From: Chitinispirillales bacterium
GTDB lineage: Bacteria; Fibrobacterota; Chitinivibrionia; Chitinivibrionales; Chitinispirillaceae
NCBI GenBank assembly: GCA_031283085.1
Contig: JAITCM010000138.1
Span: forward strand, 1-34,984
Length of the DNA stretch: 34,984 nucleotides
Direction: 5' to 3'
Under the pieces are notes generated by a model. It saw nothing but the letters and a program-made list of their open reading frames with translations. It had not been told where the DNA came from and ran no database searches. The position numbers were made by a program, and so were the translations under genes. This document shows positions 433-17,186 of the stretch, piece by piece; positions within the stretch are counted from its first letter, which is position 1; each line of letters starts with the position of its first letter.

Positions 433-461
433 TTGACCTTTGGCGTAGAATATAGTATAAT
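433..461 (+). promoter_or_regulatory. sigma70-type promoter of the poly-C surface gene
   Basis: TTGACC at 433-438, a 17-nt spacer and a perfect TATAAT at 456-461 predict a start near 468, about 80 nt upstream of the ATG at 549. The surrounding DNA is AT-rich and non-coding. Confidence 0.75.
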
Positions 462-548
462 ATTAAAGAAGAAGTTCGGACTTTGCGCCAACAAACACCA
501 CACAACCGCGCCGGGATACCTCCGGCTGACGGAAAGGTCAGGTATTGT

Positions 549-2547
549 ATGAAATCCGCCGCCAAAACAGCCCACCTGATTTCAACAGGATTAATACCCC
601 CCCCCCCCCCCTACAAATAATCGGCGACGAAACGGCTCCACAATCGTGGGAGTGCTCGCGGCGCTGGTGTTCATCGGCATCGTGACCGCGGCTATGGTCA
701 AAAATACCGGGAGCCAGTCGGCGGTTAGCCGGGGGTATGGGGCGGTTGCCGTTATGGGGAGCACCGCGAGGAGCGGGGTTGTGGCTACGGAGGGGTTCTT
801 TTTGAATAATGACACGGCGGTGGAATTCATAAACAAGCTCGTAAATCAGGGCGGCAACGATTTTTTGTTTAATAGCGGGACAGCCAGAAAGCGCCTCTCC
901 GCCTCGGCAAATCAATATTTTTCGAGCCAACTCTATAAATACGACGCTACGCAACTCAACAACACCGACCAAAGCCACCTCAACGCCGGCTTTAAAATCA
1001 GCGCTGGGAAGAACGCGTCTGGGAAGGCTATGAAGGAAGCCCGCGCGTTTTATAGATTGGGAAATTTGGTTATGGAAGGGGGCTCGATGGACGCTCAAAA
1101 CGCTATTTATTCCAAAGGGGCGTTTTCCGCGGATGCCGGAGCGGGCATTGAAGGCGGGTCGGCAACATTCGACAGTGTTGTTAATTTTAACGGCAATAGC
1201 AATGATATTACATTTACCGGGTCGGTTTATTTTAACGATACCGTTAAATTTCAAGGCAACTCCCATAAATTTCAGTTCGACAGCACGGTTTACTTTAACG
1301 GCTACGCGGATATTCAAATGAAAATCGGTTTTAAAAAGTGGGTTTATTTTAACTCCGGCGCAAAGCTTTCCGATTCCAGCGCGTTTGACGGCAAGGCCTA
1401 CTTTGGGGGATTGGCCTGGTTTAGCAGCAACGGCCCTATAACGTTTAAAGAAGACGTCGGCTTTAACGGCAACATTGAAACGAACCTTCCCATCAACACT
1501 CAAAAACATATTTACATCAACGGGAGTTTTACGTCAAACAGCAACGGTAAATTTGACGGCGCCAACGGAGTCAATGATACGTTATTTCATACCAATAATT
1601 TTAATTTGAGAACCGATTACTGCGTTTTCGAGCAAAACGTTAATGTATGTGACCAGCATAATACGTTTTACAGCGTTTGTCAAACTAATAACAGGGCGGG
1701 TTGTACACAACGCCTTGTTGAAAATAATACTTCCCTTTGCCAATTACACTACGACAAATGCACGCCTTTCGCCGTCAATGCCGCCTCCGGCGTTGCCCAA
1801 CACCTTCAAGGCGCGAAAAACAACGGCCTGGACAACATAAACATAACGCAAAAATTAAACATAAACACCGCCGGGATGTCTATGGGCGAACGCAAGGATC
1901 CGCAGTTAGACATAACAAAAATACCTCAGTCGGTACGCAACCTGTATACTCAGACCAGCATAACCAACGAGACAAACACCACGGCGCTTGATATGAACAA
2001 ACTCGACAGTCTGTATGCAAACGCGCCATCGAACGCGCGTTATATGGGGCATATAGTGATTAGGGTTACCGGAGAGCTTAACACTAACCACCTGAGCGCC
2101 AGCGACGTTTTTAACGGGAAGGTAATATTTATCATAGAAAGCGGCGGTACAATAGCCAGCAACGGAAATTTCTACACCAGCACGTCAAATGACGCAAGCA
2201 CGTTGATATACGCCGCCGCCGGCACGGGGCAAATAAGCCAATTCGGGACAACGGGCACTTTCCGCGGCTACATTTACATAGCCAACGGCAACACCGCAAA
2301 CAACAGTATCAACTTCACAAGTAATCCTAACGGCAAGATTATCGGGGCAATCCACAATTTCTCAAACAAACAATTGGAATGGAACGCCGGATTCCGGGTA
2401 CCGGTTCAGTTCAGCCCGACCCACTTAAACGCTTTTGCCGGCTTAAAGGTAAGCAACCCATCCGCCCCCCCTTCCGCCAATAGCGCAATAATACTGACGC
2501 CCGACTCCACCATAAGCGTAAAACCGTTAGGCTACTATTTCTACTAA
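549..2547 (+). CDS. phase-variable PilX/GspK-like surface protein, out of frame here at a C15 tract
   Basis: The ATG at 549 follows a Shine-Dalgarno-like AGG at 540-542. As sequenced (15 C) it gives only a 23-residue peptide ending at TAA 618-620. With 14 C, or 11 or 17, it fuses to the open frame that runs to 2547, giving 665 residues. The restored N-terminus has a 29-residue leader with five prolines encoded by the C run, then RRRNG, then a hydrophobic helix beginning STIVGVLAALVFIG. This looks like a class III prepilin site lacking Glu5, as in PilX/GspK-type minor pilins. Next come repeated strand-like units (VYFN, AYFG, VGFNG; mature residues about 150-260) suggesting a beta-helix, then a Cys-rich stretch encoded near 1615-1760, then a Gly/Asn-rich C-terminus ending GYYFY. 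A GTG at 646 could start only a leaderless form. Surface role is inferred. Confidence 0.75.
597..611 (+). repeat. C15 homopolymer (candidate contingency tract)
   Basis: Fifteen consecutive C lie inside the leader codons of the 549 reading frame. Slippage of one base switches between a 23-residue peptide and the full protein. Changes of three bases alter only the number of prolines in the cleavable leader. Confidence 0.9.
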
Positions 2548-14153: not shown

Positions 14154-17100
14154 TTAATCTTTCACGCACCGCACCGAAAACCCGTTAGCCTTGTTATTGT
14201 TCCCTTCGCTTACGACATCGTCGCTATACTGCATCCCCTTGGAGTACGCCGTTTTGCCGTCCGCCGCTTCCGTGGCCGACCACCAGTACCCGCGGTAGTC
14301 CGCGGTGTTGAATATGCCGCCGGTAAGACGGCCGCCGCCCGGCTGCGCCGAAAAACCGTAGTCATCGGAACCGTTGCCGCTGTCTTTCCATCCGCTTACC
14401 GACTTCAGTTTTTTGCCTGCCGACGCGGGTTCGCCCGTGGCCGTTGCCAATCCGTCCCACTCCTGACGGGCAGGCAGGCGCCAGCCGGCGGGACAGGCCT
14501 TTACGGCGGCGGCCCAATTGTACAGCATGCCGTATTTGTCACAGTTGGTCTTTGCGTCGCCGTAGCAAGCGGAACCGTCCGGCGTCTGGAAGTTAAGATT
14601 CTGCGCCATCCAGGTTTTGCCGGATATGTTTATTGTTTTGTACGTTTTGCCGTCCCGCGGGTCGCGGAGAGAGCCGTACTCTATGGCATCGAAGTTTGCC
14701 GTTACCGTTACGGCGGTCGCCGGCATGATGAACGCGGTCGTCGTCAAGTTTGCGCCGGCGAAGATTACGCCGCCCGTAGCCGTCCAATTTTTGAACCGCT
14801 TGCCATCCGGCGGGGTTCCGGTGGACACGGTAACAGTCGCACCCGCCGCGTACGCGCCGGCGCCGGACGCGCCGACGCCCGCGCCTGATACGGTTACCGT
14901 GTACGTCGCGGCGGCGGGCGGCGCGGCGGCGGAAGCGGCTTTCTCATAGACGCAGCGTACAGACATACCGTCGTTTTTGCTGTCGTTGTTCTCGCCCACA
15001 AGGTCAAGTTCGCAGTTCATGTAGCGGTAGTAGGCGGTGTTGGCGCCGCTCTCCGTGGCCGACCACCAGTAGCCGTTGGCTCCGGCGCCTAAGAAGTCGC
15101 CGGCGGCGCGGCGGTACCCGCCGGGCAGGGCAGAGAAGCCGTACTCATCGGAACCGTTGCCCCCCTTGTTCCAACCGCTGTTTGTTTTAAGCTTCTTTCC
15201 GGGATTGCCGCCGACCAGACTGACCAGGTTCCCCCACTCCTGGCGGGTGGGTAAGCGCCACCCGGCCGGACAGGCCTTCTTAGCCGCCTCCCAGTCGTAC
15301 TGCCGGCCGTACCCCTCGCAAAAACCGCACCAGGAACCGGTCGGCGTTTGGAAGTTCAGGTTCTCCGCCATCCACGTATAGTCGCCTACGGTTATCGTGT
15401 TGTAGGTTTTGCCGTCCCGACGGTCGTGAAGCGTGCCGTAGGGGACGGTCATCCTGGCGAACTTGGCCGCCAGCGCTTTGTCGGCGTCCATTGTAACGAT
15501 TACGGTCGCCTCTTTGGACGCCGACGCGCCCGTCCAGCCCGTGAATTTGTAGCCGCTCGCCGGCGTGGCCGTCACGGTAACGCTCGACCCCGCCTCGTAG
15601 CCGCTCCAGGTCCCAGGACTCACGACGCCGCCCTCCGGCGGCGACGCGCCCGTCGTTAGCGCGTATACCCGCTGCTGCCGCGAAAGTTGGAAGTTGGCCG
15701 TCAGCATCTTGCTGCCGTCCATCGTGACCGTCCATGGATTTGCCGTGCCGGACGCGTTGCCTGTCCAGCCGCTAAACGCGTAGCCACCCGCCGGTACAGC
15801 CGCTATGGCAACCTGCTCGCCGGCGGCGTACAGCTTCTTTTCGGGGTTGCAGGCGACCGCGCCGCCCCCCGGCGGCGACACGTTCACCGCGAGCGTGTAT
15901 CCCGGAGAAAAGTTGGCCGTTATCGCCTTGTTGCCGTTCATGGTAATCGCGACCGGATTCGCCTTTCCGGACGCGCCGCCGCCCCAACCGGCAAACACAT
16001 AGCCGCTCACGGGGGCGGCCGATAAGGTAACCGTCTCACCGGCGGCGTACTGCGCCCTGTTGGGGCTGTATACCACGCTGCCGCTCCCGGGTGGAGACAC
16101 GGCAACCGCGAGCGTATATCCCAAAGAGAAGTTGGCCGTCAGCGTTTTGCCGCCGTCCATCACAATCGCCAGGGGGTTAGCGGCGCCCGTGGCGCCGCCG
16201 CTCCATCCGGTAAACATATAGCCCGCGGCGGGGGCGGCCACTATGGCGACCACCTCGCCGGCCGGATATATCTTCTTGGCGGGGTTGCAGGTGACCGCGC
16301 CGCCCTCCGGCGGGTACGCGTTCACCGCGAGCGCGTACCCCGGTTGGAAACCGGCCGTTATCGCCTTGTTGCCGTCCATCTTTACAGTTCCGGGATTTGC
16401 CGTGCCCGACGCGTTGCCGCCCCAACCGGTAAACATATAGCCCGCGGCGGGGGTGGCCGTTATAGTAACCGATTCGCCGGCGGCGTAAAGCGCCTTGTTG
16501 GGGCTGTAAGCAACGCTGCCGCCGTTAGGCGGGGAGACGGCCGCGGTAAGCGTATATACTATTTGAAAGTTGGCAGTTACAGCCTTGTTGCCGTTCATGG
16601 TAATTGTCCCGGGGTTAACGGCACCCGATACGCTGCCGCCCCAGCCGGTAAACGTGTAGCCGGCCGCGGGAGTGGCCGCTATGGTAACCCGCTCGCCGGC
16701 CATGTACGTCGTTTTGTTGGGGTTGTACGCCGCTGTGCCGCCGCCCGGCGGAGAGGCGGTTACGGTTAGCGTGTAGACCGGCTGGAAGTTGGCCGTCAGC
16801 GCCTTGTTACCGTCCATTATGAGCGTCCCGGGGTTAGGCATCCCCGCCGCGGCGCCGGCCCAGCCTGTAAAAACATACCCGCTCGCCGGGGTAGCCGCCA
16901 CTGCGACCAACTCGTTTACAGCGTATACTTTTTTGTTGGGGTTATATACGACGGTACCGCCGCCCTGCGGGGACGTCTTTATTGTAAGGGTATAGCCCTG
17001 TTGGGCGCCGGCCGCCGTTTGGGGCATAACGGGCACGGCGGCAAAAAACGCGATTAGCGTTGCGGCGGCAACCGACGCTCCCACCCGTCCGCGCGCCGAC

Positions 17101-17186
17101 AAGCGCTTAAAAAACGCTCTTATCGTAGCCAATCCCTTCCCCAAGAGTATCCCCCGCGAAGCCGCAGCCAACCATGGCGCCGTCAC
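14154..17186 (-). CDS. secreted protein with seven InlB-type repeats and two FISUMP domains, 1010 aa
   Basis: A signal-peptide-like segment (VGASVAAATLIAFFAAVPVM, then QTAAGAQQ) precedes seven tandem ~73-residue modules (residues ~65-582), each with Y-T-L-x-V, SPPxGG, AGExV, PAAGYxFTGW and TMNGNKAxTANF. These are Listeria-Bacteroides/InlB-type small beta repeats. FISUMP domain 1 (~583-748) has WMAENLNFQTP, CPAGWRLPTRQEW, YGFSALPGGYR, YWWSATE and SVRCVYE. An eighth diverged repeat (~755-836) links to FISUMP domain 2 (~838-1010) with the same motifs. FISUMP proteins are abundant in Fibrobacter and presumed surface-exposed, possibly binding or adhesive; function is unproven. Start GTG 17186 lacks a Shine-Dalgarno, so a shorter start is possible. 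Confidence 0.85.
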   Translation of the reverse strand: MTAPWLAAASRGILLGKGLATIRAFFKRLSARGRVGASVAAATLIAFFAAVPVMPQTAAGAQQGYTLTIKTSPQGGGTVVYNPNKKVYAVNELVAVAATPASGYVFTGWAGAAAGMPNPGTLIMDGNKALTANFQPVYTLTVTASPPGGGTAAYNPNKTTYMAGERVTIAATPAAGYTFTGWGGSVSGAVNPGTITMNGNKAVTANFQIVYTLTAAVSPPNGGSVAYSPNKALYAAGESVTITATPAAGYMFTGWGGNASGTANPGTVKMDGNKAITAGFQPGYALAVNAYPPEGGAVTCNPAKKIYPAGEVVAIVAAPAAGYMFTGWSGGATGAANPLAIVMDGGKTLTANFSLGYTLAVAVSPPGSGSVVYSPNRAQYAAGETVTLSAAPVSGYVFAGWGGGASGKANPVAITMNGNKAITANFSPGYTLAVNVSPPGGGAVACNPEKKLYAAGEQVAIAAVPAGGYAFSGWTGNASGTANPWTVTMDGSKMLTANFQLSRQQRVYALTTGASPPEGGVVSPGTWSGYEAGSSVTVTATPASGYKFTGWTGASASKEATVIVTMDADKALAAKFARMTVPYGTLHDRRDGKTYNTITVGDYTWMAENLNFQTPTGSWCGFCEGYGRQYDWEAAKKACPAGWRLPTRQEWGNLVSLVGGNPGKKLKTNSGWNKGGNGSDEYGFSALPGGYRRAAGDFLGAGANGYWWSATESGANTAYYRYMNCELDLVGENNDSKNDGMSVRCVYEKAASAAAPPAAATYTVTVSGAGVGASGAGAYAAGATVTVSTGTPPDGKRFKNWTATGGVIFAGANLTTTAFIMPATAVTVTANFDAIEYGSLRDPRDGKTYKTINISGKTWMAQNLNFQTPDGSACYGDAKTNCDKYGMLYNWAAAVKACPAGWRLPARQEWDGLATATGEPASAGKKLKSVSGWKDSGNGSDDYGFSAQPGGGRLTGGIFNTADYRGYWWSATEAADGKTAYSKGMQYSDDVVSEGNNNKANGFSVRCVKD
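15450..16994 (-). repeat. seven tandem ~219-bp repeats encoding InlB-type modules
   Basis: Each unit encodes about 73 residues (the sixth about 78) with the shared GYxFTGW core. Units differ mostly at third positions and linker residues. The first begins at 16994 (Tyr65) and the seventh ends near 15450. Recombination between units could change module number. Confidence 0.85.

Follow-up and report, generated by a model that had tools for sequence, protein, structure and literature searches.

Does the run of 15 cytosines (C15) ahead of a pilus-like gene in a Chitinispirillales bacterium switch that gene on and off? We addressed this question on contig JAITCM010000138.1 of assembly GCA_031283085.1, whose positions 1 to 34,984 on the forward strand (34,984 nucleotides, nt) are referred to here as the window. 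Our answer, to which we give a probability of roughly 70%, is that C15 is a slipped-strand contingency switch within the gene's leader and belongs to a genus-wide set of poly-C tracts located between promoters and surface genes. This answer is supported by the anatomy of the locus, by statistics, by replication across species, and by differences in tract length between near-identical flanks. Slippage in living cells, its on/off effect on the protein and the coupling mechanism described below are what we infer from these observations.

The C15 tract and its reading frames

As assembled, the frame starting at ATG 549 runs for 23 codons and is then closed by TAA 618-620. Removing one C gives a 665-codon open reading frame (ORF) from the same ATG to 2547, and removing two C gives a frame that ends after 44 codons. 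Because the one-C deletion opens the frame and the two-C deletion closes it, the open state corresponds to 11, 14 or 17 C (14 modulo 3), in agreement with an earlier, sequence-only reading of this DNA. The promoter, the ATG and the stop codon named in that reading were all found as well, and the promoter is homologous in Fibrobacteria bacterium GUT77. The Shine-Dalgarno (SD) sequence given in the reading, AGG 540-542, belongs to the same box, within which GGAAAGG (Table 1) is the better-supported SD. OFF, as the reading called the gene, describes the closed frame of the assembly and holds for that state alone. At C15 the tract is longer than expected by chance and sits where a change of length changes the frame, as at contingency loci. 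GTG 646 is an unlikely alternative start of the gene, since translation from within the conserved hydrophobic segment, where it is situated, would lose the cleavage-like GS.

Homologues of the window protein were found in 15 of the 61 genomes searched (the window's own counted), with identities of up to 54-55% over long segments. The sources include GUT77 and the Chitinispirillales bins Cyl330_bin21 and Nx346_bin10, all three of which we take to be of termite-gut origin. The genus, as placed from these named relatives, sits in Chitinispirillales, Fibrobacterota. In GUT77 (genome G006), the homologous locus G006:C84 has the promoter, the SD box, the ATG and a longer leader homologous to that of the window, in frame with the same protein family and without a C-tract; at G007:C100 the SD-ATG box is identical to that of the window at 32 of 35 nt. 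The start at ATG 549 is therefore considered real. The homologue G001:C76 carries C15 inside its leader, in an open frame, and the homologues G004:C21 and G005:C17 start at contig starts within a C-run. The family thus shows tract-bearing, tract-free, open and closed states.

Poly-C tracts and their layout across the genus

The genome of the window (G000, 2.58 Mb) contains 38 C-runs of at least 12, which form 35 loci after neighbours were merged. In a genome of this size, window-trained Markov models (orders 1-5) predict 0.1-1.3 C/G runs of at least 12 and 0.002-0.04 of at least 15. No A/T run of at least 12 was found in G000, and A-runs of at least 12 numbered 0-4 per genome across genomes. 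Tract lengths peak separately at 13-17 and extend up to 28, set apart from the chance-level nines. Seven other genomes of the genus contain 30, 27, 14, 15, 14, 0 and 28 C-runs of at least 12, and the other Fibrobacterota searched mostly contain 0-5, with exceptions. Each tract fetched from G004 and G005 (L208-L215) is the end of its contig, so that C-tracts probably break assemblies and the tract counts are lower bounds. G038 and G029 (same order, family f7) have 33 and 8 such runs; the G038 count lies far from its reversed-pattern control, perhaps through runs at contig ends. The tracts as a family-wide trait were considered and found unsupported, as the tracts fetched from G021, G012, G013 and G015 lack the layout described next.

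A common layout was observed in G000, G007 and G003, and less fully in G001: a promoter, an SD-led small ORF ending in poly-proline, the C-tract, 100-400 nt, and a surface-protein gene. At most G000 and G007 loci the next gene has the C strand as its coding strand. ORFs of at least 150 amino acids starting at -150 to +600 accompanied 21 of the 24 assessable tracts of G007 on the C strand versus 6 of 21 on the other, and 17 of 28 versus 10 of 28 in G000. The same -35/-10 promoter type as in the window was located ahead of most other tracts; scores of at least 12 within 420 nt upstream were obtained at 16/28 loci in G000 and 12/21 in G007, compared with 2/27 and 4/24 in the reverse sense. G001, with many of its tracts at contig ends, shows neither contrast (ORFs, 7/9 versus 8/13; promoters, 4/13 versus 3/9). 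The downstream genes contain Fib_succ_major, LRR_5 (BspA-type leucine-rich repeat), fn3, CsgG, OmpA and beta-helix domains, and have SD boxes and, with N-termini judged by eye, signal peptides or lipoboxes. There are 72 Fib_succ_major matches in G000 and 86 in G007, and therefore only part of the Fib_succ_major genes carry tracts.

Many tracts mark the 3' end of a small, SD-led ORF that stays open through the tract into a poly-proline end and often encodes a membrane peptide. The leader frame was hydrophobic in 22 of 53 cases (17-residue mean of at least 1.6), compared with 1 and 2 in the two remaining sense frames and about 3 in each antisense frame, in a scan that scored stops at -4.5 and so lowers the non-leader frames somewhat. 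Frame openness 5' of the tract was rejected as proof of coding; it was about equal in sense (18/26) and antisense (19/26), and support for the leaders therefore rests on the SD, hydrophobicity and homology. The leader of the window is short and not a membrane peptide, and has its promoter type and SD box in common with other loci.

Comparisons between leaders further showed that those of L104, L112, L113, L119, L096, L020, L028 and L037, from two species, carry a common C-terminal motif like LDKMRNT ahead of the poly-proline. The sequences that follow their tracts fall into different repeat families, a pattern that resembles a reassortment of promoter-leader modules and gene modules at the tracts. 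A few long tracts (L010, L022, L043) overlap an ORF in whose sense they read as poly-G, unlike other loci, and the C13 tract of L031 precedes a CsrA-like frame (MLILARKKGETIHINDDIVITV), a regulator and not a surface protein.

The sequence between tract and gene start is open more often than expected. At least one frame was open across it at 25 of 32 loci, where dinucleotide shuffles expect 5.6; the corresponding values were 4/32 in antisense (p=2e-7) and 21/70 in tract-free control upstream regions (p=1e-5). Merging related loci by hand to 22 left 17 open versus about 3.6 expected. Genome G003, which had not been used in forming the idea, had an open frame to the gene start at 5 of 5 assessed loci. 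The stop fell exactly in an ATGA or GTGA overlap at the gene start at 11 of the 32 loci. By our own count the assembled sequence places about 7/32 leaders in the open frame, which is roughly what a switch caught at random would give.

Tract length also differs between closely similar copies. Two paralogous loci of G000, on C48 and C49, have C16 and C7 with flanks alike at 24/25 and 24/25 positions, and a pair of loci in G007 has C14 and C13 with flanks alike at 25/25 and 25/25. These are the sole near-identical pairs in the DNA stretches examined, with lengths taken from assemblies, and they point to instability since duplication, not in clonal time.

We propose that the window gene would be transcribed from its promoter and translated from ATG 549. 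At tract lengths with a remainder of 2 on division by 3, ribosomes would pass through the poly-proline and go on to make the 665-residue protein; any other length, including the assembled one, would halt them a few to about 30 codons past the tract. The window would thus represent a direct frame switch. At most other loci the tract closes a small leader ORF, and past it one frame out of three extends to the surface gene's start codon, often stopping in the ATGA/GTGA overlap. At such loci the tract probably controls whether ribosomes translating the leader arrive at the surface gene and so couple its translation to that of the leader.

The encoded protein and neighbouring genes

The window protein carries an N-terminal hydrophobic pilin-like segment and, together with the products of the sister genes, has the surface character of contingency-locus products. 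The GS and the hydrophobic segment that follows it (GSTIVGVLAALVFIGIV in the window) are invariant in 19 of 19 aligned members, after a short leader ending in Gly as in pilins; the segment has no Glu at position 5. Pfam, NCBIfam and PDB sequence searches of 19 family members gave no match, and none to a type IV pilin or PilX-like profile. The AlphaFold2 model has a mean predicted local distance difference test (pLDDT) score of 62.7, with an unreliable N-terminus. Its closest adhesin-type PDB neighbours are tapirins, the adhesins of Caldicellulosiruptor, at weak scores: 4wa0 and 6n2b matched with a probability of 0.89-0.92 and E values of 4e-3 to 6e-3, and share a beta-solenoid body with the model, but template modelling (TM) scores were 0.2-0.3, against a threshold of >0.5, and identity to the model was about 10%. 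The pilin-like character proposed in the sequence-only reading is thus retained for the N-terminal motif, with a weak fold match and without any family hit. Given the motif and the predicted fold, 'pilus-like surface protein' seems a fair working name for the product, and we do not claim membership of the pilins or tapirins.

Table 1 Features of the C15 locus in the window
Feature	Position (strand)	Basis
Sigma70-type promoter TTGACC-17-TATAAT	433..461 (+)	-35 at 433-438, -10 at 456-461; top-scoring promoter upstream of the tract, 16.3 bits
Shine-Dalgarno box GGAAAGG	531..537 (+)	GGAAAGGnnnGGTnTTnTATG kept in G007:C100 and G006:C84
Leader ORF as sequenced, MKSAAKTAHLISTGLIPPPPPYK	549..620 (+)	Translation; stop at 618-620; start kept in relatives
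Surface-protein open frame downstream	595..2547 (+)	Fused to ATG 549 at 14 (11, 17) C; homologues known
C15 tract, proposed slipped-strand switch	597..611 (+)	Run length; genome-wide excess of long C-runs
N-terminal pilin-like motif GSTIVGVLAALVFIGIV	634..684 (+)	Most conserved stretch of the family in alignments A2 and A3
Predicted beta-solenoid domain	1099..1560 (+)	Residues 163-316 of the modelled 644; AlphaFold2, most blocks pLDDT 74-93
Predicted C-terminal beta-rich domain	1993..2430 (+)	Residues 461-606; AlphaFold2 model

Elsewhere in the window, a 1010-amino-acid ORF at 14154-17186 (-) contains at least two Fib_succ_major domains. The ORF at the contig start (1-357) contains the in-frame short repeats GLAK and EGKAEGR and is matched in Pfam by Yae1_N alone (1.1e-6); it is presumably the tail of a PD-(D/E)XK transposase-type protein.

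Weighing the readings and their meaning

Several observations weigh against a slipped-strand switch. The C15 length comes from the assembly and not from reads, and G000 is a fragmented metagenome assembly in which several tracts lie at contig ends amid C-rich noise. GUT77 has no C-run of at least 12. C16 and C7 in the near-identical pair of G000 differ by 9 and share one frame. MutS, truncated at a contig end, and MutL are both encoded in G000, which would leave tract length as the one source of hypermutability, and loss of mismatch repair was ruled out as its cause. In addition, the repeat found after some tracts shows no excess at third codon positions, and differences between paralogues are spread evenly over codon positions. 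The lack of a third-position excess rules out the read-through stretch as a conserved protein, and the even differences suggest that openness is kept while the peptide is not; a functional peptide would account for kept openness less well than translational coupling or leader-RNA protection would. The repeat itself, of about 110 nt (GGGGGCTATATGCCCCGTAAATCAACGATAAGCC...), has 10 copies across G000 and G007, nearly all of them directly 3' of a C-tract; it follows the tracts L018, L021, L096, L104, L107, L110, L112, L113 and L119, and one copy is at G007:C31. An RNA structure for it was weak (3 of 21 pairs changed on both sides) and was dropped.

Tract length might instead tune the RNA of a long 5' leader, as the target of a G-rich small RNA or as a C-rich site for Rho loading, with no frame switch. 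At most sister loci the tract does lie in the leader, 100-400 nt ahead of the gene and not within it, a small RNA reading a leader homopolymer is a known mode (PMC8295292), and Rho is encoded in the genome, with the sequence after the tracts often CA-rich. However, the tract lies within the coding frame itself at the window and at G001:C76, and the confinement of open-frame enrichment to the sense strand points to translation. Such tuning does not fit the window as well as the leader-type loci, and we regard it as improbable. Poly-G read errors that inflate or create C-runs in genes that are truly intact would account for tracts less than 100 nt from contig ends with C-rich noise, for the contig-end tracts of G004 and G005, and for their absence in GUT77. 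Against such errors, tracts in several genomes recur at a constant place with respect to the promoter and the gene, within clean-flanked contigs that are tens of kb long; A-runs are absent; and in the C7/C16 pair both copies have the run between the same flanks. Given this recurrence across genomes an artefact is very unlikely, and individual lengths are less secure. Fainter still is the prospect of a fixed poly-proline leader or a decaying gene, with the window copy a pseudogene: its frame is broken as sequenced and its tract is represented by one length, from the assembly, but about 650 codons continue without another lesion, conservation with intact homologues extends from end to end, and sister tracts in near-identical flanks differ in length. 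The contingency-locus reading of C15 made from sequence fits all the evidence, and it captures only part of a picture in which the tract is one of about 35 with a shared layout.

The switch proposed here resembles the simple sequence repeat contingency loci of Campylobacter, Helicobacter and Neisseria, in which long G/C homopolymers also sit close to the 5' ends of surface genes, expression depends on the frame and one genome holds many loci; Neisseria pilC is a comparable intragenic poly-G/C locus. In contrast to these, the runs here are mostly 13-17 and up to 28, with C on the strand that codes for the downstream gene; most lie in leaders, and the bacterium belongs to a different phylum and is not a pathogen. 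The Bordetella fimbrial C-tract has a similar length and controls a fimbrial gene by altering promoter spacing, whereas the tracts here are located downstream of the promoter. Phase variation at homopolymers has been a subject of study in B. pertussis (PMC1891110). A surface-related gene with a variable homopolymer in its leader is also found in Helicobacter pylori, where the G-repeat of the tlpB leader is targeted by the small RNA RepG (PMC8295292); that system involves one operon and small-RNA tuning, unlike the dozens of loci, leader ORF and frame logic proposed here. A literature search, mainly of titles, returned no report of phase variation in termite Fibrobacteres or Fibrobacter. The window locus belongs to a known kind, the contingency gene, while the genus-wide leader layout in a non-pathogen, from a phylum for which the library searched gave no described example, appears new.

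We tentatively suggest multi-locus phase variation of a new layout, in which poly-C at the end of membrane leaders might toggle dozens of surface proteins independently by translational coupling. The predicted 14-38 tracts in most species of the genus match the size reported for Campylobacter jejuni, with a median of 20 tracts per genome (PMC6321876). A large phase-variation system is thus suggested in an uncultured bacterium of the termite-gut symbiont type, which is not a pathogen. If true, dozens of fibre- or host-facing proteins would be switched independently, and since the targets are surface proteins, such bet-hedging may be of use in attaching to fibre or escaping phage, not in immune escape.
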